Of a DNA stretch of 27,278 nt, positions 1,026 to 27,165 are shown one piece after another. Each line of letters begins with the position of its first letter. Positions within the stretch are counted from its first letter, which is position 1. Below the pieces are notes generated by a model that had not been told where the DNA came from, did no database searches, and saw nothing but the letters and a program-made list of their open reading frames with translations. The position numbers and the translations under genes are program-made. Origin of the DNA: a virus; IMG/VR virus record IMGVR_UViG_3300030117_006636, positions 4,737-32,014 of that record; one strand, 5' to 3'.

Positions 1026-1028
1026 TTT

Positions 1029-2645: not shown

Positions 2646-2646
2646 T

Positions 2647-3212: not shown

Positions 3213-3239
3213 TTAAAAACAATATCAGGATTCTAGATA

Positions 3240-3247
3240 TATTTATA
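3240..3247 (-). promoter_or_regulatory. T4-type late promoter box TATAAATA upstream of the small fibre gene block
   Basis: The minus strand reads TATAAATA exactly, in the 50-nt gap between the 64- and 112-residue genes. This matches the T4 late promoter -10 element recognised by the gp55 sigma-like factor. It lies 27 nt before the start at 3212, compatible with a short leader. T4-type late promoters need no -35 element. Confidence 0.65.
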
Positions 3248-3262
3248 TTTCCAATAACCCGT

Positions 3263-3457
3263 CTATTTTGATGCTATCTGTTTGAGTAGATATTTAATTT
3301 CTTCAATATCTTCTTTTATCTTATCAATCTCCCGTCTTTCATTATTTTTTAATGCTTTCATTTTTTTATATTGTGAGTATCCATGAGTATCACAATTAAT
3401 GATAGCACCAGATTTTTCATCTCTATAAAGATTTTTATGATTTTCAACTTTTATCAT
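3263..3457 (-). CDS. conserved small protein of T4-like marine phages (64 aa), function unknown
   Basis: The protein starts MIKVENHKNLYRDEKSGAI and continues with INCDTHGYSQYKKMKALKNN. It ends in a charged helix, REIDKIKEDIEEIKYLLKQI, that looks like a short coiled coil. I recognise the N-terminal 'H.NL.RD..SGAIIN.D...Y..Y...' block as recurring in small hypothetical proteins of marine T4-like phages, usually next to structural genes. No catalytic residues or metal-binding cluster are evident; it has a single Cys. The start codon overlaps the stop of the 2,499-residue gene (TAATG, one shared base) and has no Shine-Dalgarno of its own, so it is probably translated by coupling. It is the last gene before the second late promoter. 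It could be a minor structural or assembly protein; this is inference from location only. Confidence 0.8.
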   Translation of the reverse strand: MIKVENHKNLYRDEKSGAIINCDTHGYSQYKKMKALKNNERREIDKIKEDIEEIKYLLKQIASK

Positions 3458-6400: not shown

Positions 6401-9400
6401 CCACTGGTATCATATTCTTCTTCTGATACACTAATATTTAATTCACCTGGTAATGGCATTCCATTTACTGAACTTGATGTTAATGTAAATGTACCTTTAC
6501 CTGTTTTAAATCTCAATGGAGGTGGTGGTGTGGTTAAAGGATCTCTAAAGAAGAATGTTCCAAATAGATCACCAAAGGTATCTGCAACTAATCTGTGGTT
6601 TGAGACAGTTGCCTGTGCTTTGCTTGTTTTTCCTAATATTGTAAAACCTGTTTTAATATATCCATAAAAACTACCTTTTGCTTCGTCTGCTAATGAATTT
6701 AAATCTACATTTAAAACAGTCGAAGACGCTGAATATGCAGTTCCTAAACTAGTTGCTGTATCGTATGGATTTGCATTGTAAACCTCTGTTGGTGTATTAA
6801 AATCTCCTTTCTTGTGATTTGGTTGAGCTAATCTAAATATCGCTAGTTTTTTAGAACCATCATATACTTCAACTGTTTCTCCTTTAGTAAAAATACCATT
6901 TGTCATTGTTATTTCAACAAGTTTGGGTATGAAATCTAAATTTGCTGTTTTATCAAAAAATGGATAATGTCTTGTAACTGGTCTTAAAGCAATTGCTTCA
7001 AAGGTAACATTTCTTGATCTGATATGAGTATCAGGAACAGAACTTACTTTTACTTTTTCAACATAAGTTCTACTTACTGAACCTGTAATTGTTTTTGTAC
7101 CACCATCGATTTCTATATTTCTAACCCATTGATCTGACTTTGGATCTAAATGTATTTCACCATAAAATGTTGTAAGATGAAATGGATTTATATTATTAAC
7201 TCTAGATGCAAGTGGTTGATTAATAAAACTTACTTCTTCATAATTTAAAGTTATCAAATCTCCAGTTTTTTTAACATTTTCATCAAGTAATTCTAAGTTT
7301 GCTGAAAAATCAGCAGTATCAGTATTAATTATTGGATTTAATGCTAATTCTGGTTTGATTGACCAAAAATATTTTGGAACTTCTAATGTATTATTTTCAG
7401 AATTAACACTACAATTACAATCATCATTATTAATATCAATTAAACTTACACCTTTGAAATCATCTACAAAAAATCCAGTTTTAAATCTAGACAATCCATC
7501 TGCATCTTGAATTTGCAAAGTTTTTGTATCTAATTCTAGTAAACTCAAAGAAGTTGTTGTTTCTAAATTTTCTATCCTATCTTCTAATTTACCAATGTCT
7601 TTCATGGTAAATCTTACATTATCTTCAATAACTATTTTTGCATCGTCTGGATTATAGAGATATGGAGGTAACTCAATGGTTGCAATATTCATTCCATTTT
7701 CTATATCAGCAGGAGGTTTAGGATCAATATTTGAAACTCCTTGTATGACATTTAACTGACCTACAGTATCTAATACAACTCTATCAATTCTAGGAAGATA
7801 ATGACTATATCCTACTATTGAACTCTCATTTGGAGTAACAATAAATGATGGGTTTATACTATTTGAAAAAGTACGATTTGCAAATGCAAATGGCGAACCA
7901 GATCCAGAAAAATTAGATACTCTTGGTCTAAAATCTATAGTGTCTGATGCTCTAACACCTGAATCTATAGTTGGTATATCTGTGCTATATCTCTCTGCAG
8001 TATATGAATCTACCGTGTAAAAATCACCTCTATCATTAGATGGAACTTGATATTTATCGAATACAATTAGTAACTTTCTAGATGGTGCTGGAAAATTAGT
8101 TTTTCTAATAATTCGTGAATAATCATAAAATTGATCTCTCTGTCCTTTGTCTAAAGTAAACTCATTTGTGATATTAATATGATTACCAAAGGTTATATCT
8201 TGTAAACTTGACTCAATTGCAGATTCAGAAAATATTACTGTTTCTCCTATGGCAAAATCAGTCGATGTAATATTTACAATTTCTATTTCAGTTGTTGAAA
8301 CTCTTGAAGTTATTTGTGCTACAGCTCCTGTTGTTTCACCATATACTTTTTCACCTATAACAGATTCTGTATCTAAACTCAATCCTGAAGGGAATGTTAA
8401 TTTATCAAGTGTTGGTGATAAAGTATTTGTTGATTCAAAAATACCAATTATTTTAACAGCATCTGGAACATTGAGAGATATTTCTCGATCTTCTACACGT
8501 AAACCATAATCTTTACTCTGAGTCATTCCTGTCAATGCAGTGTTTATACCAACTGCAGTATTTTCAACCGTTTTCTTTTCACTCCTTATATACTCTTTTT
8601 GCTTACTTTTTAAAGATTGTTTTTTAAGTGTAGCACTTACAACTATATTTGATTGACTAGCTGTTAGTCCATTTATAGTAACTGTTTGACCATCAGAACT
8701 TAAAACAAATTGATCAGAGGTTAAATCTTCAATTGTTCCATTACTGTAATGAACAGAGTACCTCTCTGCATCAAAAGATTCATAAAATGCACTTGATATG
8801 CCACTTGCAGATAAATCAAAAGTTAAAACACCAGAACCATCAGTTGATTCACCAGTAATATTTTTTCCAACAAGTAGTGTTGAAGAAGATAAATCTATAT
8901 CTGATACATTATTGTTATCTAACTTAGCAAATAAACCACTGTTACCATCTCCAACTATTTTAGGGACACCAAAAGAAAAAGTAGTATTTGCCTCTTTACC
9001 AGCAGATGGCAAATCACCAATACATATTCCTGGTATAGATCCAACTGCTCCTAAAGTTGCAAAAGTTCCTGTAGGATCAATACTTACAATTCTGTTAAAT
9101 CTCTGAGTAGATTCATCTGGTAAATTATAAACTACAATCGTATCAGTGCTTATACCTGCAAAATTTCTACCTGAAACTGTTGCGATTCCTGCATTATTGA
9201 TTTGAATAATATCAGAATTTGAAAAGTTAGGTGCTATTACTCTCTGAAGAACAGTATCAGCAACAAAATCAGTGGCATAGCCAGTTAAGGAAGAAGCTCC
9301 TTGATAAACTGATTTTACATCTTGAATACCAAAAGATTTAATAGATTTAATTGATCTAACAAAGGAAGTGTCTTCATTTATGATCAACTGTTCACCAGCC

Positions 9401-10959: not shown

Positions 10960-12516
10960 TTAAAATTCCAAGATGATTTTGATGTCTTCTTTTTGTCTAG
11001 AGTTTCTAGTTATAACTGGTCTATTATCTAGGTAAACAACTTCACCAGACCCTTTATTTATCTCAGGGTTAGCAAGACCATTTTCAAAGTTAACTCCTAA
11101 TGAAATAACTTTATTTCCAGTAGGATTTGTACTAATTCCAGTAAAGTTTTGGTCAACAGAACCTGAAAAACCACCGTCAGCAATAATTTTATCAGCACTT
11201 GATTCAAATGCTAAAACTTTTGATTCAGTAGTGATACCTAAATAATCTGTTTGATCACCAGTTGTTTGATTAAAAACAAGAGAACGATCTTGATAATACT
11301 TTAAAACACTAGTATCAGTATCATAAGATACGATATATCCTTTTGCTGTTCCCTGAGTTACTGTTTGTTCTATTTTTTCTCCAATTACTGGTGTACCACT
11401 AGGTGTTATTATCTTAATCGCATTTACTGATGAAAATTGATTTTGGGTGTAAATAGAGGTATTTCCAATGGATGTAGGATTTTTTATAATACTTATTTGT
11501 GAAAATTTAGTATCTGTTGGAAAATCTTTTGTTGAATCATCAAATCTTGCAAAAATTAAAAGTTTATCAGTTCCTAATTCTTTATATAAATCAAATCCAT
11601 GACCTTTTGATGGAGGGATAATTGGAATAAGTTTTGCTCTTGTTGTTGGATTACCTAAACTTCCCAAATCAACCATACCATAAGTATATCCTTGACCACC
11701 TGATGAAACATTAGTTTTAGTAATCTTTCCCTCACTATCAGTATCAATTACAACTTTACCCCCTGTACCATCTCCAATAATATCAACTTCTACACCAGAT
11801 TGATTCTGAGTATAACCAAATCCTTGTTTGTCAATATATACTTTTCTTATTTGGTTGTTATTTACTGTTGAATCACCATTTTCTCTAACAGATTGAATTT
11901 GTAATGTTGTTGAAGTTGACCAACTACCAGGAACTGAAATATATTCTGTAGAATCAAATTTTATAATATCACTTGGTGGGACAGTAAACAAGTATTTCCA
12001 AATATAACCATCTCCACTCTCTCCAGCTCTAGTTGGTTCAAGATCTGTAAAAACAGGTTCATCTTGAGAGGCATTTCCTGTTGTGTTTATACCACTTGAA
12101 CCATTATCAATACAAATATAGACATCAAAATTTTGATTCATTACATAATAACTTGAATCATATAATCTTGAAGAACCTGTTATTGGTGATGGATTTTTTA
12201 AACTGTAATCATGACGATACATTTCATATTTTGTACCTTGAGTCCAGTTTCTTCTTGATATTAATCTTCTAACATTATCAGATGTTACTTTTTTACCAAA
12301 ACTAGCAGTATCACCTACATGATTGCTATAATTAAAATTATCTATTGGATTTGGTGTCTCATTATCCCAATTATCACTTCTCCCAAAACCTACAACAGGT
12401 GTAGTAGGATTAACTAATCCCACAACAACATAATATGAGTTTGTAGAGTTTTCAACAGTCTCTACAAAATTATTTGCATTTAATATTCTAAATTGATCAG
12501 TTACAATAGCAGCCAT
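10960..12516 (-). CDS. 8: baseplate wedge protein gp8
   Basis: Several short blocks align with T4 gp8 (334 residues) in order. They are AIVTDQFRI near the start, VVGFGRSDNW, RRLISRRNWTQGTKYE, GDGYIWKYLFTVPPSDI and EYISVPGSW, then FSQISIIKNP, and at the end GEVVYLDNRPVITRNSRQ with EDIKIILEF. The T4 counterparts are ITFGRSEPW, DAVIPRRDW, GDGYVWEYLFEIPPDV, EYIVVPW, FRQISIITNP and MIYMENRPPI. gp8 is a baseplate wedge subunit that binds gp7, gp10 and gp6. This version is 518 residues. The extra length sits in two places: about residues 205-330, with GFGY/GQGY beta-repeats, and about 350-480, with an IGEKIEQ...AKGYIV module. It starts 27 nt after the giant upstream gene, under its own late promoter. 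Only a weak GAAG precedes the ATG. Confidence 0.95.
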   Translation of the reverse strand: MAAIVTDQFRILNANNFVETVENSTNSYYVVVGLVNPTTPVVGFGRSDNWDNETPNPIDNFNYSNHVGDTASFGKKVTSDNVRRLISRRNWTQGTKYEMYRHDYSLKNPSPITGSSRLYDSSYYVMNQNFDVYICIDNGSSGINTTGNASQDEPVFTDLEPTRAGESGDGYIWKYLFTVPPSDIIKFDSTEYISVPGSWSTSTTLQIQSVRENGDSTVNNNQIRKVYIDKQGFGYTQNQSGVEVDIIGDGTGGKVVIDTDSEGKITKTNVSSGGQGYTYGMVDLGSLGNPTTRAKLIPIIPPSKGHGFDLYKELGTDKLLIFARFDDSTKDFPTDTKFSQISIIKNPTSIGNTSIYTQNQFSSVNAIKIITPSGTPVIGEKIEQTVTQGTAKGYIVSYDTDTSVLKYYQDRSLVFNQTTGDQTDYLGITTESKVLAFESSADKIIADGGFSGSVDQNFTGISTNPTGNKVISLGVNFENGLANPEINKGSGEVVYLDNRPVITRNSRQKEDIKIILEF

Positions 12517-12542: not shown

Positions 12543-15500
12543 CTAGCCAAGATCCTTTCTTAAAGCACCAGAGTCTCTAAGTCCAAAATCTCTTCTTTGA
12601 ATTGTTGGATAAGATGAGATGCCTGAGTAATGAATATTACCTGTAACACCTATTGATATAGGATTTGAGGATCTATTGAGGTTTGTTAAACGACCCCATG
12701 AGAACCCACCTATAGCAGTTCCAATTCCAACTGTAGCAGCAACGCCTGTTGTATTTACACCAGTCATTATGTTGCATATTATAGTTTTATTACCAGGATT
12801 TATATCATCAACAAGATAAATGTTGTCAACACAAGTTGTCCCTGTAGAAACTATAGCACCATCATTAAATACGGAGGTTACTCCATGACCTACCTGAGTA
12901 TCAAAGATATAAATTGGATAACCAACTTTTAAATCTGTGAATGTAGCACTAGGATTACCTGTACCAGTACCCAAATTTTCATTTAATGTAAATTTAAGAG
13001 CTGTTGCATTCCCATTTACTCCGCCAGTCACACCAATACCAATAATATCCCCATCAAATCCCTCAATAGTTGATATTAAATCAACATCCTCTTTCTTTAT
13101 AGTTGGGAATGGTGCTAATACTTGAGGAGGTTTAGTTTGAGTATATCCAAAACCAGGATTGGTAATAGTAACTGTATTTAGGCGACCATTTGATATAGAA
13201 ACTGTTGCTGTTGCAGTTGTAAGACCAGAGGGTGGTGAGGTTGATGTAGTTATTGAATAATAATTATTAGTTGCTGGTGCTGATATTGAAACAGTAACAG
13301 CAGAACCTACAAAACCATTACCAGCATTAACGATATCTAATGATTGAATTGTACCAGCAGCAGAAACTACTGCTGTTAGTCCAGCAGCAACTAAGTCGGT
13401 TGATTCGACTATTAAACCACCAACTGCACCAATATCTATAGATCCAAAATCTTCTTCATAATTAAATAAAGTCGCATTATCAAGATACAATATAGTATCT
13501 CCCACACCAACATCAGATATAATTTTTGCAGTTGGATAAACTAAAGATTCAATTGAGTCTCTTGATTTAAATACAAATTCACCATTAATTTTTTTATCTC
13601 TCTTTTGTTTTGTCCAATGTAAAGGTTTAAAGTTTATATCATCAATACCAACACCATTATATAAATTTGTTTCAACCTCATCTGAAGTAGAGATAGAATA
13701 TATGACTCTTGGTGTTTGAGTTGTTGTAATACCTGAATTTTTAATTAATTGAACAGAATCACCAACTTTTATTGTAGGTGCAACTGATGCTCCAGCTGAT
13801 ACTTGAACAGCATCAACACCTTCAGTTCCTTTATAAAAGAATATATCAATTACATCTGTTGAACTTGGAGCTTGTGAAAATTCAAAAGAAGTTCCTCCAT
13901 CAAAACTGTATGCTTCACCAGGATCTTGTACAACACCATTTACAAATATTAAAAGTAATGATTTCAAATCAATCAAAGCTGATGAGACATTTAATTCATC
14001 TGTTTCAAAACTGAGTAAATTTCCATTGTATATTATTGGGAATCTTTTTCTAAAACCATCTTGAAGTTCCTTAATTGAATCAATAAAATCAAATTGTCCA
14101 AAGTTCCATGAAGAATATTGGTCAGTAAAGACATCTAATACTGTCAATTCAAAATCACTTATTAATTGTGAAGTGTTTAAAAATCTGTCAGTCACTAATC
14201 CAACAGGTTTAAACACATCACCTACTTTAAAATTATAACCTTGATTATCTAATTCAAAATTAGATATAATATTTGATGTTGAACCTAATCCAACTGTTGT
14301 AGCTCCAGCACCTACGTCTAAAGTTAGAGTAACTCCATTACCTGTATCTGTCGTAGAACCAATTCCTCTCCTTGATACTCCTATTATTGGAAGATTAGAA
14401 TATGTTGGTGATTCAACAAATATTCTTGGTTTAGTATAACCAGTACCTGGATTATTGATAGTAAATTTAAGAGCACCACCTGTTCCTGTATTTGTAATAC
14501 CTACGTTAACTGTGAATGTATTTGTTGTTTTTGAAGTAATTGCTAAAGTTTTGCCATGTGCAGGATCTCCTCCACCTGAACTTGGTGTTGGACCAGAACG
14601 GGGATAAGAATGATCGGTTGAAAAATTATCTTGAGCACATCTAAATACAAATCCATTTGTAGCAAGACCAACTGTATCACTTGTTGTTAAACCGTGAGAT
14701 GCTTTTGTAATTACTAAATCTCCTGTTGCTGGATCATATGTGGCATTTGTAGGAGTAAGAGAAAGACCTCCAGTAACTGAAACAGCATTTGCTACTGCAC
14801 TTACAAAAACGTGAGTATTAGAAACAACCTCTGCTGAAATATCAGCACTTGCTCCATTTCCAGATAAATCTGTAACAGCAACAGAAACTGGATTTCTATA
14901 ACCAGAACCAAATGATAGATCATTTAAATATTCAAATGCAGTTCCAGAACCAACATAAGTATGCGCCTGTGTGCTAGCTCCTATACTTACGGTGAATGTT
15001 GTTGCAGACAATATTCCTGTAATACCAAATGATAAATCATCTGGTATCGTTAATGAAGGTGTAAAGTTCAAACCATCAAGTCTCACAAACTCATTAATAT
15101 CACCAAAATCATGGTTGGATGATGTGGTAATTTCTAATTGTCCCGTTATATTATTATATGATGCGGTGCTTATGCCATATGAACTACCAGTTGTTCCAAT
15201 ACCAGTAAGTCCTATAATTGAACCACTACCATTAATGGTTGCTTTTACCTTTGCACCAACAAGATTCGCAACACCCAATCCACCAGTAGATCCTAATGAT
15301 ACAATTACTCCACCTCTAGGTAGTTGATTTTGATTTACATCAGTATCACTTACAATCAAACTACCATTTGAAGATGTAATTCCTGTGAATACTACATTTG
15401 TAGATGTTCCAGCTCCAATCGACGCAAAATTATAATTATTGCCTAAATTATTGAAAGTTGTAGGTGTTTGGAATATTCCATTTAATAATAAAATACTACT

Positions 15501-18500
15501 TCCAGTATTAATTCCAACTGTATCTGCTCCTCCTACTTTTACTCTATATGATTGATCTATACCATTAAAACTATCTGATATATCATCAAATATTTGATTA
15601 GTACTATAATCTTGTCTCAAATAAACTCTACCATTAAATGTTGATCTAACTGGAGTTAGATTTGATGGAGTTCTTTGTGATAAATTTGTTCCTCTTGGTG
15701 CTTCAGTAAAATGAATTGTACTATCAACTATATTATAACTCCCTGAATGAAGTCTAGCTATATCACTAGCACTATGATTAGTTGCTGCAGAACCAATATA
15801 TCCCCTTACAACCTCAAGAATTTTAACATCTCCACTTTCAGTTATCGGACCAACAGATGTAGTTCCTAAACCAACATTTGTGATCTCCATGTATTCATCA
15901 TTTATTTTAATTGTATCACCTGTGGTAACTGAAGAAATACCAGTAACACTGAATGTTGTTACACTATCATTAATATCAAATTCAAGATTTGTAGTTATTG
16001 GAGTAAATGCGATTGGAGATTGTATTACACCGTCAAGAGATATAAGAGCCTTTTCATTTTTCTTAGACATTTCAAATTCATGACTATTACCAGATCCTGA
16101 ACCTGTGAATGATAATGCTATTCCTTTTAATGCATCAGGTTTTGTTTTCGCAACCTTAAATCTATCTTTATTACCACCATCTTTTATTACAAATAATTCA
16201 GTTCCTGCTGCTAAAGTTCCTCCTGCTGTTGTAATACCTGCTACTGATACACCATCAAAAGTAGAACCAGGTGAATATATTATTTTTTCACCAGTTTCAA
16301 AGAAATGATCAATAATTGTAAATTGACCTATTGCTAAATCTAAAACTGTGGGGTCAGATGGATTAAAATTCTTTTGGAATATTGGTTTTGAATTAGATTG
16401 TAATATAAAACTTGATTTATTTGCTCTACTTCCGTTTATAGCATCATATTGTGCTAATGATAATGATTCAGTCACTGTTCCATATTGTAAATCAAGAGGT
16501 GGATTTATCAAATCAATGTCTTTATGGAATAATTTATTTAATACTTGAATTTGTACATTATTTGTACCACCAGTAAATTCTGGATCTGGATGAAAATTAA
16601 AGTTCAAATCTGTTCCTTTTAATGATGATGAGAATGTCCCTATTCCTGAAGTACTACCTATAGATAAAAATGGATATTGAGTCGTATGAGTATCAGTTTC
16701 ATTGTGTGCAACCATTACTTGATGCAAAGCACTAGTAGAACCACTCGATACTCTTATGATACTCTTGAAACTAGTTATTTCTTGTAACTGATATGATGAT
16801 ATTGTTGAAGAAGTAGATACATTAGCAAATTTAGATTCAAATCTTACAGTTTTTTCAGTTTCATCAGATTGACCCTGTGATTTAAATCTATATGTTCCAA
16901 TACCTGCAGCAGTCGTACCGATACCAATTACTGATGTTCTAACTTCGATTTCATTTGATTCATCATTTTCAAATTTTATTCTAAATGCACCTGTTGATAT
17001 ACCAGCAGTAAAACTACCAATAAAATTAGAAGTAAATGCTTGTTCTGAATCACTATAAAATTCAGATAAGAAGGTATTTGTGCCATCATGAGTTGCATAT
17101 AATTCTACAAAATTTGTTTCTGAAGTAGCAGGATTTTTAACTTCTGCAGAAACAAAGAATGCATCAGTATTTGCAGTATTTGAAGAAATTATTTCTGATG
17201 TTGAAGCAGTTGATACAGATTTATTACTTCCTATTAAATTAATAAATCCTAAAGATTGTGTTCCAATACCTGATAAATCTGTATTAAAAGTATTTTGGAA
17301 AATTTTTAAATCATAATCATTATTATCAGGATCATCTGGAGTAAATATTAAGTTTACTAAATCATTTGAATCTAATTCAAATTTTAAAGTTCCTAATTCT
17401 GACGATGTGTTATGAACTTTTGTTTGCTCTGCTGTAAAAACATCATTTTCATCTCTGAATAAAACAATGTCTGATAATTGTATATTTTTATTAAATGGAT
17501 TTCTTGTTTGTATCAAATATCTTGCGAAACTAGTGTTTATTGATATATCTAATAATTTGGCTAAGATAGTTGATGAGTTTGAGAATAACGGACTAATATC
17601 ATCTATTTCTAAAACTCTATTTGTTCTACATTCGATGTATGGTGATAATTTTGTATTCTGTAATTTTAAGAATTTTGATTTATTATTTACAACGTCAACA
17701 TCCAAAGCAAAATCAAAATTGTTTATAGTGTCAACTCTTTTTTGATCAATTATGTCAAGTGCTAAAGTATCAAGAAACGTAGTAGTGGTGACTCCAGCAT
17801 TAGTTGTTGATGTTACACCCACATCAGCAAAATTTTTCAATCCACTTGTATGTAATAGTCTATTGACAGGATTTATTAAATCATCAAACGTTTTTGAACT
17901 TTTAATTGAATATGATAAATTTTGATAATAATCATTATCAGGTAGTACTTGATAATCTTGATTTAATTTACCAGTATTTTTTCTCCACCCTTGATCTTGT
18001 CTAAGTGAATAGTCTATCAAAAATTCACCTGAATTTTTAGATATTTGATTTATAGTAGCTATATTTCCACTATTAGCACCTCTAATTCTTTGACCAGCAA
18101 CTAATTCAAAAGCTCCAGGTTCATCTTCAATAATTTTAATAAATTCATCAGTTGATTCAGATACAGATAATTCGACTGGTGTGAAAGAATCTTTAATAAA
18201 AGCTGATAATTTTTCACCCACTTTAAAATTAAATATTTTCTGAGTAAGTTTAAAAACAGGATAATCATCTTTTTTAATTATTTGTGCAAATGAATTTTGA
18301 GCAGTTTTAGCAATACCAGGATTATTTGCAATACCAGATAAATTAAATTCTACAGTTGCTGGATTATTATTAACCATTCTAGAAACTTTGAAAAATTTAA
18401 ATCCGTTATCATCAGAGTTAAATCCAGTTCCTTCAGAGATAGTTGAATGAGTATATTGTAGAATGCCCTCAACAAATATTTCTTCACCAACGGAAAATGG

Positions 18501-21500
18501 TGCAGTACTAAAACCTAATATTGGTGTTACTAAAGTACAAGTAACGATACCTGTTGCTGAATTAAATTCAACACTTTGTATAGATGCTCCATTACTATTA
18601 TTCAATGTAAATATTTCGTGAGTAACTGGGGGTAAACCTCTTGGTGGAACAACTATAACTGGATCACTTACAGAACTTCCACGTAAAGATGCATTTATTG
18701 ATCCAGTTATATTTTTTAATCCAGTATCTGGATTTACAATAACAAAGTCTGGAATTGTAGTATAATTTTTTCCTCCTGAAATTAATTCAATATCTGTTAT
18801 TGTATTTGAATTTATTATTGATACTATAGGTGAAACAAAAGCCTCTGGCCTTAAAGTATTATCTGATGAATATTCAAAACCAGGATTAAGTATTCTTACA
18901 TCATTAATTCGATTTATTGTTTTAGAGTCAGGTATTAAACTACCATTTGTACCTTGCGTTGATGCTATACTGACAAATGAAGGTAAACTTTTATATCCAC
19001 TTCCACTATAATTAATTTTAACTTCATTAATTGCTCCAGATGGGTTTGAAGATTTTGTAGAATAACTTAATTTAGATGTTTCAGATGGTTTATATGATAT
19101 TTTTTCTGGTTCTTTTTCAAGTGAAATATTAAAAATTGTTGATCCTGTGGATACAGTATCAAATACTTCAAATTCACCATCATAAACACTATTCTTATAC
19201 TCAATTGTTGAGTATTGATTTACATCAATAGTATCAGATGTGCTAATATATCCACTTTTTTGAAGATTATAATATAAAATATTGGGATTATCTTCATAAT
19301 AATTAAGAGTAACTGTTGCATCATCAATCTTGTTTATGCTAGTAGTACCAATACCAACAGTGCCAATACCAGTTACTTGGAAAGTATTAGTTGTCCCTGT
19401 AGAAACAAATTCATTTTTAAAATCTTGATCGTGATATAATTTAAATTCAAAACCTTCTAATGATGAATGACCTACACCAAAAACTAAATTATTATTTTTT
19501 ATTACTTCTATTTTTGGATTTATAAGAGAAAATTCATGAGATCCACCAGTGGATGATAATTCAATAATTCTTATTGGTTCATCAATTACATCAACTGGTG
19601 TCTCTCCTAACTTAAAGTTATTATCATCTATTTTAAATACAAAATATGAATTTTTATCAATCAAACCTTCTGCAGGTGATGAAGAAGAATAATAAATTTT
19701 ATCTCCAGTTTCAAAACTATGTGATGAAATGTTTACAACATTTGTAGAACTTGTAATTCCACTAGATGAACATGTTTTGGGATTTATAAGTATAAGATCG
19801 TTAAATTTATCATATCGAACATCTATGAATGAGGAAGTTCCTATACCCACAGATTGATTAGATTTTAATTGTAAATTTATAATGTCATTGTTGTTTAAGT
19901 TGTGGGAAGTTGACAATGATACTTGAGCATGAATTCTTTGTAATCTACCAGTTACTTGATTAAAGTTTGATTCCAACAAATATTCAAAACTACTACTACC
20001 TACTTTTGTATCACCAACGAATGATAATCCCGATGTACTTGTTGTTAATCCAATTTGAGTAACAATACCAATATAATTATCCGATTTTTTAATAACAAAT
20101 ATATCTTGACTATTTCCAGATTCAGGAATATTAAATGTTGTTACACCATCATCATCAGATACTGTCAAAGCATATCCTGCAGCAGGTTTAGTAAGTGTTA
20201 CCTTTTGATTAGTTACAAATGGGTGATTTGGTAATCTAATGCTTCGGAGAGGTGTAGATACCACTTTAACCAAATCCCCCAAGGTAGATGTTGACGTAGA
20301 TCCTAGTCCAACAGCTGTTCCAACACCAATAGATTCGTGGGGATTAAAAAATAATTTACTATTAATCTGAGAATCAAACCCAACAGTTTTTAAATCAATA
20401 TTAAATAAATTTGGAATTAAATCAACTTTTGTGCCAATAGTATGAACTCCAGATACAGCACCTCTTTTTACTCTTAATATATTATTTTCACCAAAAGTAT
20501 TAAGAACTAATAATTTCTCAGTTCCTATGCCAATACTACTTCCAATCGATATTGGATCTGGTATTTTTGAAACATATATGTCAGTGACAACACCTGTTGT
20601 TGATGAATTAGGAACTTCTTGATATAATATTGTACGTGCAGTTTGAAACCCAATTTTATGAGATCCGTTGAGATTAGTAATGCTATCTGTGCTTAATCCT
20701 GATATTACAACAATATCTCCATTGTTTAATGAAGGTGATGTTGATATAAATGCTGATACAGTTTCATAATCATTATTAACAAAAACAACATTTTCATAAG
20801 TGTTTATAGTAGTATCAATTGACGTTACTTCTTTTCCCTTTATACTATCAACAGAAACACTAAGACCTCCTCCTTCTGTATTTGAATTATCAAATATTGC
20901 TGAATTTCCAACTTGATAGTTTTCACCATCATTTATTATATTAATTGAATCTACAGATCCAAAAGAAGTTGACTCAACAATAGATACTTGAGTTGAAATT
21001 TCATTCGATTCTGCAATAAAATCATTATCTGCAAAAGCATCGGATACTTTATATGGATAAGTATTTCTTATCAAATTGGATGTTTCAATCTTAAAATTTT
21101 TTTGAGTTAATTTATAATTATCAATTACAGGATTAGATCTATAAGTATCACCTATAAAGTATGGAAATCTAGGTTGTAATGATATTGTAGTAATTCCAGC
21201 AAAGTATGCATATGTTCCATTTGGGTATTCAGGAGTTCTACAATATCTTCCATTATGAACATCTAAATCACCACTATTTTTGAAAACATGATCATCAGTA
21301 AAGAATCCTGTATTGAATGTTGATGGTCTATCAACAATATTAGATACATCAAGTTCATATCCACTATTTAAAATTCTTATTGTAGAATTTTCATCTGATG
21401 GATCACTATAACCGTATGGTCCGTAAATTGGATTTCCATCATACGCCCAACCTATAATAGGTGAGTGTTCAATACCATCATCACCAAAAGCATCATTACC

Positions 21501-24500
21501 TATTTGTGTTGAATATCCTACCAAGGAGTATTTTAATTTTTCCTGAGATTCAATTAATGCTTCAGATCCATATCTATTAAATGAGTTTATTCTTAAACTT
21601 CTAATATTAGTATCAACTTTTAACCCAGAACCAGGTGGTTTGACTATAATTGATGTGGTTTTTTCTTGATAATTGAGACCACCTTTAAGTATGATAATTT
21701 CTGTTATTTTTCCATTTGCAACGACTGCTCTTAATTCAGCACCTAAACCTGTTCCAATACCAACAACTTCTAAATCAGGAGCTGTCTCATAATTTTGTCC
21801 TTTTGATTGTATTTCTACAAATGTTATCTTTCCATCAGATATAATAGGTTTTAATTCTGCATCTTTTCCAAGTTCCCTTGTTATATTAACTGGTTTTTCT
21901 AAATTTAAAATATCAGAACCATAACCATTACCTTCTTCATAAAGATACAATTCATCTATTGATCCTCTAACAATAGGTGTTGCAGTAATAACACCAACAT
22001 CCGTATTTGCTAATTCATATTGTAAGTTTAACTTAATATCAGGATATTTGAAAACTTGATAACCAGTTCCACTATTAGAAAATTTTATATAGTCCAACCT
22101 GAAGAAATCATCTGTTGAAGTTCCACCGAGTCCTGCATTTGTTAATCTGAATGAATTTTCGTCAACTATTTGAACATTATAAAAATTTGATGTTGTTGTT
22201 ATACCTGTATATTCAACTAATTCACTAATAGATTGGGGTTGTGTTGATCCTAAACCAACATTTGTAGAATATACTATCTTATCTCCATCATTAAATCCAT
22301 GATTATTAAAATTAATTGTATGATTACTTGTATTGATACCTATTGGTTTTACAAATAATTGTCTATTTTGATAATCACTACCAGCATTAATTATTTTTAT
22401 ATCACTTAATGTTAGTTGTTCTTTTAATAATTTAAATTTATGTGTACCATTTTTACTAAAAGTTGTAAAACCAACTGTGTTTATTCCAGCATTATAATCA
22501 TCAACATTTTGAAATAATTTGATCGTATTTTTATTTACAACTGAGGGGAAATAAACAGCTCCATCAACTAAAGTAGTAGTTCCAAGTCCAACAACTGATA
22601 TTGCATCATTTCCAACTGTTCCCACTCCGAGAGGATCATTACCATTTTTATCATAAACTAAAGGTAATCCACTTGAAATGTGATGATCAGTTAAAAATGT
22701 TATTGTTTCATTAATATTATCAACTCCACCTGATTGAGATATCATTCTACCATCAAAAGATATTTCTCTTTTTCTTTCTGAAATTATTGGTTCAAAACTC
22801 GCACCAAATCCATTCCCACCCTCTAAAGTAACTGATAATACTTTTTGTATGTCAAAATCCTGTGGATCTACTTGTATATTAGTAACCTCACCTATGACTA
22901 CTGGTTGAACTAAAGATGTAGTTCCAGTTCCTGGTGATGAAACTGTGAATGTAGGTGGTTTTAAAACATCATAATTATTACCACCATTTAAAACTTTAAC
23001 ATCACTTAAAGGACCAAAAAATATTTTATCATCAGATTTATAATTTAAAATCTCCACTCCATTAATAAGTAAACCAGTTGCACCTGATAAAGTTTTTTCA
23101 TTATTAGAATTTGTAATATTTACATTTATAGGAAACTCTTTTAAAAGTCTTTGAGCACCAATTTTTTGTTCAGTAGTTCCAATTAAAGAAAAAGTATGAG
23201 ATCCAGTATTAGTAGGTAATGATTCAAATTCTATAAAATCATTAAGAGGTATAAATGATCTAGATCTGTACAAACGAATTTGATTTTTGTTAGATAATAC
23301 TTCAACAAAATAAGTTCCCTCTGGTAATCCTGGTATAACAGTTCCTTGTGCAGTGTATGCAATTTCATCTCCAGTTATAAAATTAGTATTAGATGAAAAA
23401 GAAATGATACTATATTTAAGAGTATTTGGATTATATCCCTGCAAATCTACATTAGCAGTTGCATTTGATATTACTGATTGAGATAAATTAGTTGTTATTT
23501 GATACGCAGGTAATGAATTTGAGGCAACATACATGTTTTCATTATTGCTGTTATATACATTTGTAATATCTGATGTAATAACATTATTACCAAACTCAAT
23601 ATCAGCATTTGCACTGCTTGCTGTTTTTAATTTTCTTCTTATATCGTAACTTTTGTTATTTGCAACATCTGGAATGGTTGTAATTCCAACAGCATTAAAT
23701 AGTGGGTTTATGGTGATTGTTTGAGTTGACTTACTTACACTCTTAATAACACCAGTAGCTGCTAAATTCTCTTCATTTCTGAAAAGCACCTCTACTTCAT
23801 CATCAACTTTAATACTTGATTTATCAATATCACTGGTGAATAAAACAAAATTATTTCCTGTGATAGATTTTACTTTAAATCTTGAAGATGTATTGTAAAT
23901 CCATGAATTTGCAAATATTTGCTTTCTTGATTTATTTGTTAATGGATCTGTGATTTTTTCACCAACATTTTTTACCGTTATCTTTTCTCCTTCTGATAAG
24001 AGTCTAATATCTGATGTTGGTACAAATTTTGATAAAACACCAGTCAATCTTAGTTCAACTCTTTTACTTAAATCACCATTTTCATAACCATAATAATAGA
24101 TATCAGATCTAATGTCATCAGTTGTTGATATTGGTGAAATAATATTTTCACAACCAAAAAATTGATTTAAAGATTTACTAGAGTAGTATATATTAGTATT
24201 AATTCCAGAAACCACAATTCCTGTTGTTCCAAATCCAACAGTTGAATCGACAGTTATTACACTAGACCCTGTAGAAACATTCGTTAATGATTTCGTGATG
24301 CCAGGTATTGTAAACGTTCCTTCAATTAACTCCCTATCATTATATCCTACAAATAAACCTAATTTATAGTAAGTTTTGTTTTTTCTTGTAAGTGGTTCAA
24401 CTTCAGATACTGATGCGGATATTGCAGCTCTAGTATTAACATCTGTTGATTTAACTATTGTTTGCCCAAGTAAATTTATTGGATTACCTGCCAATGCTTC

Positions 24501-25241
24501 AGCTAAAACAACCTCTCTTCGTATGAACTCTGCAGATGATGGTTTAATTAAAAATTCTTCTAAATCTAATATTTTTGGAGATTCATTATATAAGATATTG
24601 AATAATATTCTAAATGATTCTTCAGTTCCTTTTGATTGATATAATGATTTTGAATTTTTTATAAAATTACTTACATCTAAATTATTAACAAAATCAACAT
24701 TTTCTAATCCTGGTGTTAATGTTGTTTTTGTTTTTTTATAAAATTCTTTTAAAAATAATGCACTAAGATTTATGACTGTTGCATCTGTTTCATGATTTGT
24801 GGCAGTAGAATCGGTAAATATAAGTTCATTAGGTTGATTTGCTGCATGATAAGTTGTAATACCACTAAATCCTCTAATACAACCAGTAAATGTATTAGTA
24901 GTTAATCCAGTATATGTAATTACTTCTTCATTAATTTTAAATAGACCATATTCTTTAGGAAAACCCTTGGTGCTACTTACATTTACTGTGGTTGCAACTG
25001 TTGTAATACCACTTGTTAGTGTCGTTTCACCTACTACAACTTCTGGTGTTAAATTATCTAATTTTATGTACTGATCTAAATTATCAGTAAGGTCAATCGG
25101 ACCTCCCTGATATTCTTGAGAGATATAATATTGTTTTAAAAAATCTACTGCTTTTGGACTTTCAGATAATAAAAATTCAGGTATTTGATTTTCAATTATC
25201 TGTTGGACTTTGACTCTTTTATCAATTCCCGTGGTTATCAT
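12543..25241 (-). CDS. giant modular virion structural protein in the T4 gp7 (baseplate wedge) position, 4,232 aa
   Basis: This uninterrupted frame fills 47 percent of the window. It lies between gp6 and gp8, exactly where T4 has gene 7 (1,032 residues), so a baseplate wedge role is inferred from synteny; clear sequence identity with T4 gp7 is not visible. The N-terminus (VQQIIENQIPEFLLSESPKA, then VDFLKQYY) and a helical block SLYQSKGTEESFRILFNILY (about 196-215) look like a docking region. The rest is beta-rich and modular. It has RG-H modules (Arg123, Arg1593, Arg3146) and at least five H-x-F..GD.I.Y modules, with a YHYH-like domain at about 1259-1347. It also has QGWRKNTGKLN..DNDYYQNL (about 2416-2440), NGV-Q modules (near 3070, 3255, 3765) and many GxGY repeats. 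It starts 1 nt after the gp6 stop, with GAGG 5 nt upstream. No protease or lysozyme motif is seen. Confidence 0.88.
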   Translation of the reverse strand: MITTGIDKRVKVQQIIENQIPEFLLSESPKAVDFLKQYYISQEYQGGPIDLTDNLDQYIKLDNLTPEVVVGETTLTSGITTVATTVNVSSTKGFPKEYGLFKINEEVITYTGLTTNTFTGCIRGFSGITTYHAANQPNELIFTDSTATNHETDATVINLSALFLKEFYKKTKTTLTPGLENVDFVNNLDVSNFIKNSKSLYQSKGTEESFRILFNILYNESPKILDLEEFLIKPSSAEFIRREVVLAEALAGNPINLLGQTIVKSTDVNTRAAISASVSEVEPLTRKNKTYYKLGLFVGYNDRELIEGTFTIPGITKSLTNVSTGSSVITVDSTVGFGTTGIVVSGINTNIYYSSKSLNQFFGCENIISPISTTDDIRSDIYYYGYENGDLSKRVELRLTGVLSKFVPTSDIRLLSEGEKITVKNVGEKITDPLTNKSRKQIFANSWIYNTSSRFKVKSITGNNFVLFTSDIDKSSIKVDDEVEVLFRNEENLAATGVIKSVSKSTQTITINPLFNAVGITTIPDVANNKSYDIRRKLKTASSANADIEFGNNVITSDITNVYNSNNENMYVASNSLPAYQITTNLSQSVISNATANVDLQGYNPNTLKYSIISFSSNTNFITGDEIAYTAQGTVIPGLPEGTYFVEVLSNKNQIRLYRSRSFIPLNDFIEFESLPTNTGSHTFSLIGTTEQKIGAQRLLKEFPINVNITNSNNEKTLSGATGLLINGVEILNYKSDDKIFFGPLSDVKVLNGGNNYDVLKPPTFTVSSPGTGTTSLVQPVVIGEVTNIQVDPQDFDIQKVLSVTLEGGNGFGASFEPIISERKREISFDGRMISQSGGVDNINETITFLTDHHISSGLPLVYDKNGNDPLGVGTVGNDAISVVGLGTTTLVDGAVYFPSVVNKNTIKLFQNVDDYNAGINTVGFTTFSKNGTHKFKLLKEQLTLSDIKIINAGSDYQNRQLFVKPIGINTSNHTINFNNHGFNDGDKIVYSTNVGLGSTQPQSISELVEYTGITTTSNFYNVQIVDENSFRLTNAGLGGTSTDDFFRLDYIKFSNSGTGYQVFKYPDIKLNLQYELANTDVGVITATPIVRGSIDELYLYEEGNGYGSDILNLEKPVNITRELGKDAELKPIISDGKITFVEIQSKGQNYETAPDLEVVGIGTGLGAELRAVVANGKITEIIILKGGLNYQEKTTSIIVKPPGSGLKVDTNIRSLRINSFNRYGSEALIESQEKLKYSLVGYSTQIGNDAFGDDGIEHSPIIGWAYDGNPIYGPYGYSDPSDENSTIRILNSGYELDVSNIVDRPSTFNTGFFTDDHVFKNSGDLDVHNGRYCRTPEYPNGTYAYFAGITTISLQPRFPYFIGDTYRSNPVIDNYKLTQKNFKIETSNLIRNTYPYKVSDAFADNDFIAESNEISTQVSIVESTSFGSVDSINIINDGENYQVGNSAIFDNSNTEGGGLSVSVDSIKGKEVTSIDTTINTYENVVFVNNDYETVSAFISTSPSLNNGDIVVISGLSTDSITNLNGSHKIGFQTARTILYQEVPNSSTTGVVTDIYVSKIPDPISIGSSIGIGTEKLLVLNTFGENNILRVKRGAVSGVHTIGTKVDLIPNLFNIDLKTVGFDSQINSKLFFNPHESIGVGTAVGLGSTSTSTLGDLVKVVSTPLRSIRLPNHPFVTNQKVTLTKPAAGYALTVSDDDGVTTFNIPESGNSQDIFVIKKSDNYIGIVTQIGLTTSTSGLSFVGDTKVGSSSFEYLLESNFNQVTGRLQRIHAQVSLSTSHNLNNNDIINLQLKSNQSVGIGTSSFIDVRYDKFNDLILINPKTCSSSGITSSTNVVNISSHSFETGDKIYYSSSSPAEGLIDKNSYFVFKIDDNNFKLGETPVDVIDEPIRIIELSSTGGSHEFSLINPKIEVIKNNNLVFGVGHSSLEGFEFKLYHDQDFKNEFVSTGTTNTFQVTGIGTVGIGTTSINKIDDATVTLNYYEDNPNILYYNLQKSGYISTSDTIDVNQYSTIEYKNSVYDGEFEVFDTVSTGSTIFNISLEKEPEKISYKPSETSKLSYSTKSSNPSGAINEVKINYSGSGYKSLPSFVSIASTQGTNGSLIPDSKTINRINDVRILNPGFEYSSDNTLRPEAFVSPIVSIINSNTITDIELISGGKNYTTIPDFVIVNPDTGLKNITGSINASLRGSSVSDPVIVVPPRGLPPVTHEIFTLNNSNGASIQSVEFNSATGIVTCTLVTPILGFSTAPFSVGEEIFVEGILQYTHSTISEGTGFNSDDNGFKFFKVSRMVNNNPATVEFNLSGIANNPGIAKTAQNSFAQIIKKDDYPVFKLTQKIFNFKVGEKLSAFIKDSFTPVELSVSESTDEFIKIIEDEPGAFELVAGQRIRGANSGNIATINQISKNSGEFLIDYSLRQDQGWRKNTGKLNQDYQVLPDNDYYQNLSYSIKSSKTFDDLINPVNRLLHTSGLKNFADVGVTSTTNAGVTTTTFLDTLALDIIDQKRVDTINNFDFALDVDVVNNKSKFLKLQNTKLSPYIECRTNRVLEIDDISPLFSNSSTILAKLLDISINTSFARYLIQTRNPFNKNIQLSDIVLFRDENDVFTAEQTKVHNTSSELGTLKFELDSNDLVNLIFTPDDPDNNDYDLKIFQNTFNTDLSGIGTQSLGFINLIGSNKSVSTASTSEIISSNTANTDAFFVSAEVKNPATSETNFVELYATHDGTNTFLSEFYSDSEQAFTSNFIGSFTAGISTGAFRIKFENDESNEIEVRTSVIGIGTTAAGIGTYRFKSQGQSDETEKTVRFESKFANVSTSSTISSYQLQEITSFKSIIRVSSGSTSALHQVMVAHNETDTHTTQYPFLSIGSTSGIGTFSSSLKGTDLNFNFHPDPEFTGGTNNVQIQVLNKLFHKDIDLINPPLDLQYGTVTESLSLAQYDAINGSRANKSSFILQSNSKPIFQKNFNPSDPTVLDLAIGQFTIIDHFFETGEKIIYSPGSTFDGVSVAGITTAGGTLAAGTELFVIKDGGNKDRFKVAKTKPDALKGIALSFTGSGSGNSHEFEMSKKNEKALISLDGVIQSPIAFTPITTNLEFDINDSVTTFSVTGISSVTTGDTIKINDEYMEITNVGLGTTSVGPITESGDVKILEVVRGYIGSAATNHSASDIARLHSGSYNIVDSTIHFTEAPRGTNLSQRTPSNLTPVRSTFNGRVYLRQDYSTNQIFDDISDSFNGIDQSYRVKVGGADTVGINTGSSILLLNGIFQTPTTFNNLGNNYNFASIGAGTSTNVVFTGITSSNGSLIVSDTDVNQNQLPRGGVIVSLGSTGGLGVANLVGAKVKATINGSGSIIGLTGIGTTGSSYGISTASYNNITGQLEITTSSNHDFGDINEFVRLDGLNFTPSLTIPDDLSFGITGILSATTFTVSIGASTQAHTYVGSGTAFEYLNDLSFGSGYRNPVSVAVTDLSGNGASADISAEVVSNTHVFVSAVANAVSVTGGLSLTPTNATYDPATGDLVITKASHGLTTSDTVGLATNGFVFRCAQDNFSTDHSYPRSGPTPSSGGGDPAHGKTLAITSKTTNTFTVNVGITNTGTGGALKFTINNPGTGYTKPRIFVESPTYSNLPIIGVSRRGIGSTTDTGNGVTLTLDVGAGATTVGLGSTSNIISNFELDNQGYNFKVGDVFKPVGLVTDRFLNTSQLISDFELTVLDVFTDQYSSWNFGQFDFIDSIKELQDGFRKRFPIIYNGNLLSFETDELNVSSALIDLKSLLLIFVNGVVQDPGEAYSFDGGTSFEFSQAPSSTDVIDIFFYKGTEGVDAVQVSAGASVAPTIKVGDSVQLIKNSGITTTQTPRVIYSISTSDEVETNLYNGVGIDDINFKPLHWTKQKRDKKINGEFVFKSRDSIESLVYPTAKIISDVGVGDTILYLDNATLFNYEEDFGSIDIGAVGGLIVESTDLVAAGLTAVVSAAGTIQSLDIVNAGNGFVGSAVTVSISAPATNNYYSITTSTSPPSGLTTATATVSISNGRLNTVTITNPGFGYTQTKPPQVLAPFPTIKKEDVDLISTIEGFDGDIIGIGVTGGVNGNATALKFTLNENLGTGTGNPSATFTDLKVGYPIYIFDTQVGHGVTSVFNDGAIVSTGTTCVDNIYLVDDINPGNKTIICNIMTGVNTTGVAATVGIGTAIGGFSWGRLTNLNRSSNPISIGVTGNIHYSGISSYPTIQRRDFGLRDSGALRKDLG
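16060..16335 (-). repeat. H-x-F/GD module copy in the 4,232-aa protein (about residues 2970-3061)
   Basis: Pattern HFFETGEKIIYSP ... GTELFVIKDGG..DRFKVA ... GSGNSHEFEM. It matches the other copies in order of elements: His-x-Phe, Gly-Asp/Glu, Tyr, a Val/Ile strand, then a closing Ser-His-x-Phe. Confidence 0.6.
19523..19740 (-). repeat. H-x-F/GD module copy in the 4,232-aa protein (about residues 1834-1907)
   Basis: Pattern SSHSFETGDKIYYSSS ... NSYFVFKIDDNNFKLGE ... STGGSHEFSLI. This is the clearest copy and best defines the module of about 70 residues. Confidence 0.65.
21195..21467 (-). other. degenerate YHYH-type domain within the 4,232-aa protein
   Basis: Residues 1259-1347 carry HSPIIGWAYDGNPIYGPYGY (1259-1278), then LDVHNGRYC (1326-1334) and GTYAYF (1342-1347). 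The order DG-x-P-IYGP, LD-x-x-NG, then a Tyr-x-Tyr element matches the YHYH domain family as I know it. The closing motif is Tyr-Ala-Tyr-Phe, so both naming histidines are absent here. Domain identity is inferred by motif only. Confidence 0.6.
22124..22330 (-). repeat. H-x-F/GD module copy in the 4,232-aa protein (about residues 971-1040)
   Basis: Pattern FNNHGFNDGDKIVYSTNVG ... NFYNVQIVDENSFRLTN. It lacks a clear closing Ser-His-x-Phe and is the shortest copy. Confidence 0.55.
22425..22710 (-). repeat. H-x-F/GD module copy in the 4,232-aa protein (about residues 845-939)
   Basis: Pattern TDHHISSGLPLVYDKNG ... VYFPSVVNKNTIKLFQN ... GTHKFKLL. The first strand is more diverged (Ser-Gly-Leu for Gly-Asp), but the order and the closing Thr-His-x-Phe are kept. 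Confidence 0.55.
23183..23400 (-). repeat. H-x-F/GD module copy in the 4,232-aa protein (about residues 614-687)
   Basis: Pattern NFITGDEIAYTAQG ... GTYFVEVLSNKNQIRLYRS ... TGSHTFSLI. The initial His is replaced, but the GD-x-I-x-Y, YFV and Ser-His-x-Phe elements are all present. Confidence 0.55.
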
Positions 25242-25242
25242 A

Positions 25243-27165
25243 TTATCCTCTTGTCAATACTCCGTTTGAATAACTCGATGTAACTTTATATCCAACACCA
25301 GATATCTGTTCACCAGACGTAATAGTGTCTTTAACCATATTTATGGTGCTATCACCGACAGCAAATATAAGATAAAGGTCTTTCAAACTTAAAATGTCAT
25401 TTGATTCTGGGAATGCCTGTATCTCTATAATATTATTAGATTTTTCAGTTGATGTTATATTAATAGTATTCAAAATTATTTCACCGTGTATATAATCAAC
25501 AACTCCAGCGGATGATAATACAAGTTGATCTCCATCTTCCTTAACAATAGCCAATACTCCTTTTCCACTTCCATCTAAACTACCACTAAGAGTTTTATTA
25601 GGTATATCTGTGAAATAAACAGTGTCAGTTTGATTTTGAATTGTAAATCCCGTGCTTTTAATATTTCTTCCTGCAGGATTTATGTGAAATCTATTACCAT
25701 AACACAATTCATACTGTGCAAATGAGTTTATGAGTGCTTTTAAATTTCTTCTTATAATAACACGACTTATGTTTGATGATATTGCATTATCAATGTTATC
25801 AATTACATTTAAAACTCTACTGTATTTAAATCTGCCTCCAAATTTATTAAGATCAGTTGACTTACTATAGGTTGTCAATCCATTTATAATATTAGTTTTT
25901 AAATTAGATACTGTTGATATTTTAGATGGATCGTAATATACAAATGATTCAAGTTCAACATATAATAACTTAAGATCTAAGATTTTTTGATTAATACCAG
26001 TTAATGAATAACTTTTTAACTTTGATAAAATTTGTGTCTTATCAAAGTCTGATACAAATTCACCATTTTTTGGTTTGATTGTAATTGAAACTGTTCCAAA
26101 TTCAGGTGGATCAAGTTCCTCACCACCAACAACAGAAACAGATTCAGTGTTTGGATAGATTGTTTGTATTATCGACTCATAATCCCTTGCTGTAACGGCT
26201 CTGTACTGCGATGAATAGAGTCTAGGTGCAAAATACTTAATTGAATCAATTGACTCAATATTACCCCCATTAGATGCTGATGAGACAGTCGTGATAGTAG
26301 GTGTAGTTGATGGTAATTGAACTTGATTTGAAGATGATACAACACTACCTGCATAACTAAACGATGATGGTCCGTTACCCTCTACACCATCTGTGACAAT
26401 GTAAGAAACAGTGATTACAGCATCATTTTCAATTTTTTTACCAAAAATCCCATCACCAAAAAGAAGTTCATATCTCTCATCAGTGACCTCTTGTATTAAG
26501 TACACTTCAGAAGTATCTGTTATGTTTAATATATTATCAACTTTACTATATTCTTTCTCACTATTATCAGAGACACCACTTACTTTAACGACTATAGTAG
26601 AAGTATCAATAAACGAATTTTCAAGTATAAACCTTTGATCAAGTGACCCATCAACTGTAAATGTTTTTGTCAAGTATGTTCCTTGATAAACAACTATATT
26701 TTCAAAAGATGAGGTGCTTGAAACTATATTACCTGCATTATCAGTCAATTGACTTGTAACTGTGGTTATTGACTCTGGAATTGAAAAAACATAAGAGGTA
26801 TCATTATTTGTGCCTACACAAACTAATCCTGCTTGTAAAGTTAGTGTTGGTGTGTTTCCACTTGTAGTAACATCAAAAGATACAGTTGCTTGAGCAGCAG
26901 TTCTTGATCTTGGTACATATCCAACGTTTCGAGCAAGTGAAACAACATTTTCTCTGACTGTAGCAGAGTCTAAAAACGACTCATTTACAATCATGTTAGA
27001 GTTAAATGCTGTAATATACGTATTATATGCTAAAGTATCGATTAAAACTGAAAAATTTGACCCTTCAAAGTCAAAATCAGTAAAATCTGAGTTTGCACGT
27101 ATATAATCCTTGATTGAAGTCTTGATTTGGTCAAAATCGAGGTTTGTAAACTTGGTAAAAGGCAT
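25243..27165 (-). CDS. 6: baseplate wedge protein gp6 (baseplate J-like)
   Basis: This 640-residue protein is close to the 660 of T4 gp6. It begins MPFTKFTNLDFDQIKTSIKD and continues with DFDFEGSNFSVLIDTLAYNT and NMIVNESFLDSATVRENVVS. LARNVGYVPRSRTAAQA follows: the helical N-terminal domain of gp6/baseplate J proteins. Near residue 225-240 is YELLFGDGIFGKKI, the usual core motif. At about 310-335 is APRLYSSQYRAVTARDYESI, followed by the beta/alpha C-terminal region with TVSITIKPKNG and ELCYGNRFHI. gp6 dimers tie neighbouring wedges into the iris ring around the baseplate hub. It begins directly after the gp25 stop (TAA then ATG) and ends 1 nt before the giant gene, so gp25, gp6 and the giant are probably co-transcribed. 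No strong Shine-Dalgarno is visible, so coupling to gp25 is likely. Confidence 0.95.
   Translation of the reverse strand: MPFTKFTNLDFDQIKTSIKDYIRANSDFTDFDFEGSNFSVLIDTLAYNTYITAFNSNMIVNESFLDSATVRENVVSLARNVGYVPRSRTAAQATVSFDVTTSGNTPTLTLQAGLVCVGTNNDTSYVFSIPESITTVTSQLTDNAGNIVSSTSSFENIVVYQGTYLTKTFTVDGSLDQRFILENSFIDTSTIVVKVSGVSDNSEKEYSKVDNILNITDTSEVYLIQEVTDERYELLFGDGIFGKKIENDAVITVSYIVTDGVEGNGPSSFSYAGSVVSSSNQVQLPSTTPTITTVSSASNGGNIESIDSIKYFAPRLYSSQYRAVTARDYESIIQTIYPNTESVSVVGGEELDPPEFGTVSITIKPKNGEFVSDFDKTQILSKLKSYSLTGINQKILDLKLLYVELESFVYYDPSKISTVSNLKTNIINGLTTYSKSTDLNKFGGRFKYSRVLNVIDNIDNAISSNISRVIIRRNLKALINSFAQYELCYGNRFHINPAGRNIKSTGFTIQNQTDTVYFTDIPNKTLSGSLDGSGKGVLAIVKEDGDQLVLSSAGVVDYIHGEIILNTINITSTEKSNNIIEIQAFPESNDILSLKDLYLIFAVGDSTINMVKDTITSGEQISGVGYKVTSSYSNGVLTRG

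Follow-up and report, generated by a model that had tools for sequence, protein, structure and literature searches.

A giant gene between gp6 and gp8 of a marine T4-like virus contig probably encodes the baseplate wedge protein gp7

Background

In phage T4, helices of gp6 and gp7 form the core bundle of the baseplate wedge, and six wedges are arranged around the hub. T4 gp7 is a protein of 1,032 aa. Few known phages are as abundant as the marine T4-like ones. T4 gp7 was stated to be absent from cyanomyophages and pelagimyophages alike and to be 'substituted' by VrlC (PMC7029224). In the open-licence literature we found no baseplate of a marine T4-like cyanophage, nor its periphery, solved by cryo-EM. 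We report a giant gene. With a probability of about 0.82, we take it to belong to a Kyanoviridae-like marine cyanophage and to encode gp7, the baseplate wedge initiator, with a core that pairs with gp6 and a remainder that extends outward as baseplate periphery.

Results

A giant frame at the gp7 position

The window (the whole stretch of DNA that was analysed, 27,278 bases) is part of a linear virus record of 32,975 bases. All its long genes are on the minus strand, and those around the giant frame were as follows.

25243..27165, minus strand, gp6, baseplate wedge subunit, upstream neighbour (PHROG 219, E 6.5e-198; Pfam Gp6-like)
12543..25241, minus strand, giant gp7 (proposed), 4,232 aa, ATG start, no internal stops (PHROG 2885 over residues 2-4217)
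10960..12516, minus strand, gp8, baseplate wedge subunit, downstream neighbour (Pfam Phage-Gp8, PHROG 438)
3457..10956, minus strand, VrlC / DUF4815 protein, 2,499 aa (Pfam DUF4815; the name VrlC is taken from relatives)

The genes, in reading order, ran gp25-gp6-gp7-gp8-VrlC-...-gp13-gp14, with gp13 inside the window. Outside it, the same record contained a gp25-like frame upstream and gp14-, gp15- and small terminase-like frames downstream. The labels gp25, gp13, gp14, gp15 and small terminase were given from sequence resemblance and the gene order of relatives, with no search. The record as stored has a short stretch masked as X within the gp25-like frame upstream of gp6 (L514:209-436). The intact 4,232-residue frame that the initial annotation had placed between gp6 and gp8 was found exactly at 12543-25241, on a strand (minus) that it had not given, and is indeed about four times as long as T4 gp7.

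A known family of giant proteins under purifying selection

The 4,179-position model of PHROG 2885 ('baseplate wedge subunit') aligned over positions 2-4178 with residues 2-4217 at 3,665.7 bits, and the N-terminal 247 residues matched 459 phage records, nearly all of marine cyanophages and many labelled 'baseplate wedge initiator'. Proteins at the gp7 position, measured from annotated genes or their open frames, had 3,515 aa in S-RSM4, 3,895 in S-SRM01, 4,156 in S-SM2, about 4,225 in ACG-2014f, about 4,314 in S-CAM7, 4,454 in P-HM2, 5,195 in P-SSM2, 6,076 in Syn9 and 7,312 in P-SSM4. Judged from such gene lengths, the 4,232-aa protein of the window is of ordinary size within the cyanophage giant gp7 family, and the exceptional length assumed for it does not hold. 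Giant gp7s have been in the databases for years, and the window gene is a further member of a known family.

The order gp6-giant gp7-gp8 was the same in seven phage records; in two others, Syn9 and P-SSM4, two extra genes stand before gp8. PSSM2_111 of Prochlorococcus phage P-SSM2 and PQC13_gp194 of S-SRM01, at the same gene position, were collinear with the window gp7 across residues 1-3380 and the C-terminal part, and 43-46% identical to it in the long first aligned block. A second gp7-labelled gene of P-HM2, PHM2_094 (L088:27051-32501), had no gp7 core in the part examined, and its name 'gp7' is probably wrong.

The gene was intact in ten independent metagenomic contigs (4,090-4,227 aa) and was also a single intact frame in nine other phage records. 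Against twelve relatives, dN/dS was 0.14-0.26 over the first ~3,580 codons and 0.06-0.35 for each 500-codon segment of them; the C-terminal 648 codons, compared with ten relatives, gave 0.12-0.32 as a whole and 0.07-0.36 when divided into thirds. The giant gp7 chain is under purifying selection over its full length (dN/dS about 0.06-0.36). Since the gene was intact in ten other contigs and dN/dS was well below 1 in all segments tested, the length of the frame is not due to chance. The strong selection on length proposed by the initial annotation was thus borne out, although a reading frame alone is insufficient to show selection.

The gp7 gene of Synechococcus phage S-SKS1 (L003:15992-28400) consists of four consecutive frames, collinear with the window protein, the first of which has no annotated CDS; this reflects a sequencing error or a real break. 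Post-translational cleavage, giving a gp7-like wedge piece and at least one separate outer protein, would explain the division of the chain into collinear segments and the four frames of S-SKS1. Such processing is improbable, given that the S-SKS1 breaks may be sequencing errors and that a single intact frame is kept in the ten metagenomic contigs and nine other phage records.

The N-terminal wedge core

The N-terminus of the protein contained three parts.

25065..25229, minus strand, wedge core, first helical part, residues 5-59 (predicted helices 5-19, 22-27, 29-44 and 51-59)
24762..25028, minus strand, beta domain inserted in the wedge core, residues 72-160, first 'RG' module (predicted strands)
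24453..24758, minus strand, wedge core, second helical part, residues 162-263, with the motif YxSKGTxxSFxxLFxxLY (PDB profile, hhalign and PF23786)

A profile (A1) was made of residues 1-260 from 23 sequences, the other members being 30-94% identical to the window sequence. Against all PDB sequences it gave two matches only, both T4-type gp7 (E 6.9e-5 and 2.4e-4), with window residues ~195-224 aligned to T4-type gp7 residues 729-759. Pfam PF23786 (Baseplate_wedge) matched 21 of the 23 family members, the best at E 7.3e-7; the window sequence alone scored 18.1 bits against a curated cutoff of 27, and membership therefore rests on profiles. When the search was reversed, T4 gp7 matched the cyanophage PHROG 2885 at E 1.3e-4. 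By hhalign, A1 aligned with five T4-type gp7s at probability 95, and a full-length alignment of six cyanophage proteins reached 93.3 with T4 gp7 but ≤1 with all the other eight T4 proteins (nine tested). As positive controls against their T4 namesakes, the window gp6 gave 100 and gp8 98.3. A bridging homologue, gp7 of Xanthomonas phage X1, matched both cyanophage and T4-type gp7.

With single sequences, a phmmer search of PDB found nothing at E 1 for the complete protein, and the N-terminal sequence reached T4-type gp7 only at E 0.4-0.5, indicating that an alignment profile is needed to detect gp7. Profile searches gave no match to T4 gp7 outside window residues ~190-292, no match of the C-terminal segments to T4 gp7 or gp10, and no gp7 core in VrlC, gp6 or gp8 of the window. 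The gp7 homology in another gene that the initial annotation had named as counting against its reading was thus not seen in these three.

Profile comparison shows the N-terminal ~260 residues and the helical core of T4 gp7 to be homologues. We class the protein with PHROG 2885, as orthologous to the T4 core but not as a gp7 of T4 architecture, because its core is N-terminal and no profile match was found outside ~190-292. The initial annotation had restricted a docking-like part to the first ~250 residues, in good agreement with these results; of the two ends that it had proposed to compare with T4 gp7, the N-terminal core matched in profile-profile comparison and the C-terminal segments did not. 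Its wording that the giant gene 'replaces' the wedge gene was not upheld, as the gene appears to be gp7 itself with a different elaboration.

The first helical part also matched X1 gp7 residues 6-49 and residues 6-36 of gp055 from Pelagibacter phage HTVC008M. The core is contiguous in X1 and is split by some 505 residues in Syn9 and P-SSM4. An AlphaFold model of residues 1-640 (mean pLDDT 67.7, pTM 0.45, of moderate confidence) had helices at 5-59, a beta domain at about 72-158, helices at 162-218 and beta domains thereafter. In a Foldseek search with this model, the top match (E 7.8e-5) was gp7 from a variant of Klebsiella phage KP1, and T4 gp7 took second and sixth place. All VIA-align matches to T4-type gp7 had Z 6.7-7.4 and rmsd 3.1-9.7: residues 166-410 aligned to 702-850 at Z 7.4 and rmsd 9.7, a range that unrelated chains reach, and residues 238-404 to 761-843 at Z 6.8 and rmsd 3.1, also within the range of unrelated chains. 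A counterpart of T4 domain V at residues 238-404 is hinted at by the model. The inserted beta domain resembled beta domains of virion proteins (8vjh_A, 8rk3_b, 9in6_M and 8jov_1) from phages Chi, JBD30, GP4 and VP1, with VIA-align Z 9.8-10.7. Structure prediction and cryo-EM fitting can use the core as a defined domain.

VrlC and the reported absence of gp7

Were T4 gp7 absent from marine T4-like phages and VrlC in its place, as published for cyanomyophages and pelagimyophages (PMC7029224), the giant gene would be an unrelated structural protein. The VrlC profile, however, matched T4 gp7 at an hhalign probability of only 0.3. A solved relative of VrlC is the DUF4815 protein ORF65 (PDB 9euf, E 6.1e-46), which we take to belong to Staphylococcus phage 812. 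The gp7 core was instead detected in the giant gene and in HTVC008M gp055 (L649:33435-36485; 1,016 aa), both located between gp6 and gp8. Gp055 matched the core profile at E 8.1e-26 (hhalign probability 98.7) and exceeded the PF23786 cutoff of 27 bits with 48.9, whereas VrlC of HTVC008M matched neither. Thus, the statement that gp7 is absent is unsupported for HTVC008M, and placing the core in these two genes contradicts it; substitution by VrlC is very unlikely.

HTVC008M gp055, a quarter of the length of the window gp7, has an N-terminal core homologous to it and is labelled 'head closure Hc2'. By these matches it carries the gp7 wedge core and is probably misannotated. A GSGY-type module in common with Hc2 proteins is likely to have caused the label, and a common generic module may thus have misled annotation.

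Modules of the long chain

Downstream of the core, the following parts were distinguished, the second 'RG', GSGY 1-6 and NGV 1-2 modules by profile search.

24102..24311, minus strand, second 'RG' beta module, residues 311-380
22854..23030, minus strand, GSGY module 1, residues 738-796
21897..22124, minus strand, GSGY module 2, residues 1040-1115
21642..21866, minus strand, GSGY module 3, residues 1126-1200
20799..20987, minus strand, GSGY module 4, residues 1419-1481
18849..19061, minus strand, GSGY module 5, residues 2061-2131
18636..18830, minus strand, GSGY module 6, residues 2138-2202
15927..16163, minus strand, fibre-like 'NGV' module 1, residues 3027-3105
15369..15608, minus strand, fibre-like 'NGV' module 2, residues 3212-3291
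14490..15341, minus strand, variable-copy array module region, residues 3301-3584 (2 copies)
12546..14489, minus strand, conserved C-terminal part, residues 3585-4232, with NGV module 3 (3714-3807) and GSGY module 9 (3952-4042)

Altogether, profile searches gave nine GSGY (~75 aa), two 'RG' beta, three fibre-like and two array modules, confirming the repeated beta modules of the initial annotation, to which self-BLAST of giant gp7 was blind (no repeats found). The array module, present in 2 copies in the window, had 7 in P-HM2, 13 in P-SSM2 and 15 in P-SSM4, and no copies were found in S-SRM01 and S-SM2. Most of the extra length of P-SSM2 consisted of insertions in the array stretch. The single NCBIfam match, formate C-acetyltransferase (16.7 bits against a cutoff of 1109), was taken as chance. 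A role as tape measure or ruler was dropped, the modelled parts being beta domains and not long helices.

One GSGY module was also seen in gp8 (residues 214-285, window 11662-11877), several were seen by eye in the gp14-like protein of the same contig (L513:3041-4681), and one copy of the 'RG' beta module was found in VrlC (residues 2088-2159, window 4480-4695). From its sequence distribution, GSGY appears to be a generic module common to gp7, gp8, VrlC and the gp14-like neck protein. That the giant gp7 forms a neck collar, as the initial annotation had considered, and is not a part of the baseplate could be argued from the GSGY modules of the gp14-like neck protein and from a match of PHROG 'head closure Hc2' to part of the chain. 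With the common module generic and the N-terminal domain a wedge core, nothing points to the neck, and a collar is extremely unlikely.

The YHYH block and host binding

About a third along the chain lies a YHYH block, which was conserved in all nine orthologues compared.

21195..21470, minus strand, YHYH domain, YAYF subtype, residues 1258-1349 (Pfam PF14240)

The YHYH-like domain noticed in the initial annotation was recovered with PF14240 at E 3.2e-25 and 89.7 bits (cutoff 25), although over half of the model only (positions 91-181 of 193). YHYH was predicted to be a Zn hydrolase from three histidines and one aspartate (PMC7824862). In 23 phage sequences the eponymous motif was YAYF (20), YAYY (2) or YAYH (1), so the motif histidines expected of such a hydrolase were not kept; a His at residue 1259 was largely kept. 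YAYF was also the commonest form (52/79) among relatives from bacterial and archaeal genome assemblies, in a search seeded with phage sequence patterns, which makes the sample biased, some of the loci probably being phage contigs. Assemblies of Bacteroidota, Planctomycetota and Acidobacteria also contained the YAYF-subtype domain. On these motifs the hydrolase prediction appears weakened for the YAYF subtype. For residues 1040-1515 AlphaFold gave a poor model (mean pLDDT 64.4), whose Foldseek matches all had E 0.87 or higher and whose VIA-align Z did not exceed 4, and the domain profile had no significant match in PDB.

A part in host recognition has been discussed for YHYH domains in structural proteins of marine phages (PMC7029224), and S-SZBM1 has no long tail fibres by electron microscopy (PMC9146016). 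Together with the fibre-like NGV modules, this would suit a C-terminal chain that is mainly host-binding, an adhesin resembling a fibre, joined to the wedge and touching the cell through the YHYH block or the C-terminus. We regard this as unlikely, though worth consideration: no hypervariable tip was seen, dN/dS being low throughout and in the C-terminal 648 residues included, the YHYH block was conserved in every orthologue compared, and related genomes have separate fibre genes. The lack of a hypervariable tip mildly favours a structural over a receptor-binding role. In the passages considered from experimental-evolution work on other cyanophages, mutations are described in baseplate and fibre genes, and the giant gp7 gene is not named there.

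Presence in virions and proposed role

Absence of the protein from the baseplate would have spoken against the reading of the initial annotation; virion data from relatives run the other way. S-SZBM1 virions contained a 6,619-aa 'wedge initiator' (71 peptides, emPAI 0.41; PMC9146016), and S-CREM2 virions gave 91 unique peptides of ORF122, a 1,937-aa protein whose gene is flanked by gp6- and gp8-type ones (PMC10665884). Both were identified as gp7-position proteins by annotation, length and gene order.

If the giant gene is gp7, its helical core, split by the small beta domain, would most likely associate with helices at the N-terminus of gp6 and so initiate each of the six wedges. The other ~3,970 residues would most likely run outward as intermediate and outer baseplate, and the C-terminal chain is possibly a peripheral arm. 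Together with gp8 and VrlC, the long chain would most likely take the place of the N-terminal domains of T4 gp7 and of the outer proteins of T4.

Comparison with T4 and minimal gp7s

The window gp7 shares with T4 gp7 (PDB 5IV5 and 5HX2) the helical core with its SKG motif and the position between gp6 and gp8, but differs in where the core is placed: near residues 645-760 in T4, after ~640 residues, and from residue ~5 in the window protein, with ~3,970 residues after it. It does not follow the T4 domain order (N-terminal domains, core, then V and VI), and no counterpart of T4 domain VI or of the N-terminal domains was detected in it by profile comparison. The same core is found in Delftia phage PhiW-14 gp64 (246 aa), which has little beyond the PF23786 domain (116 bits), and in X1 gp7 (498 aa), which scores above the PF23786 cutoff and, unlike the window gp7, has no beta insert in its core. 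Both lack the giant extension. An evenly balanced case can be made that a small docking core is all that gp7 is in the T4 superfamily and that unrelated outer parts were added to it, N-terminally in T4 and C-terminally, as a giant chain, in marine cyanophages, where a single chain would form much of the baseplate periphery, its length set by the copy number of the array.
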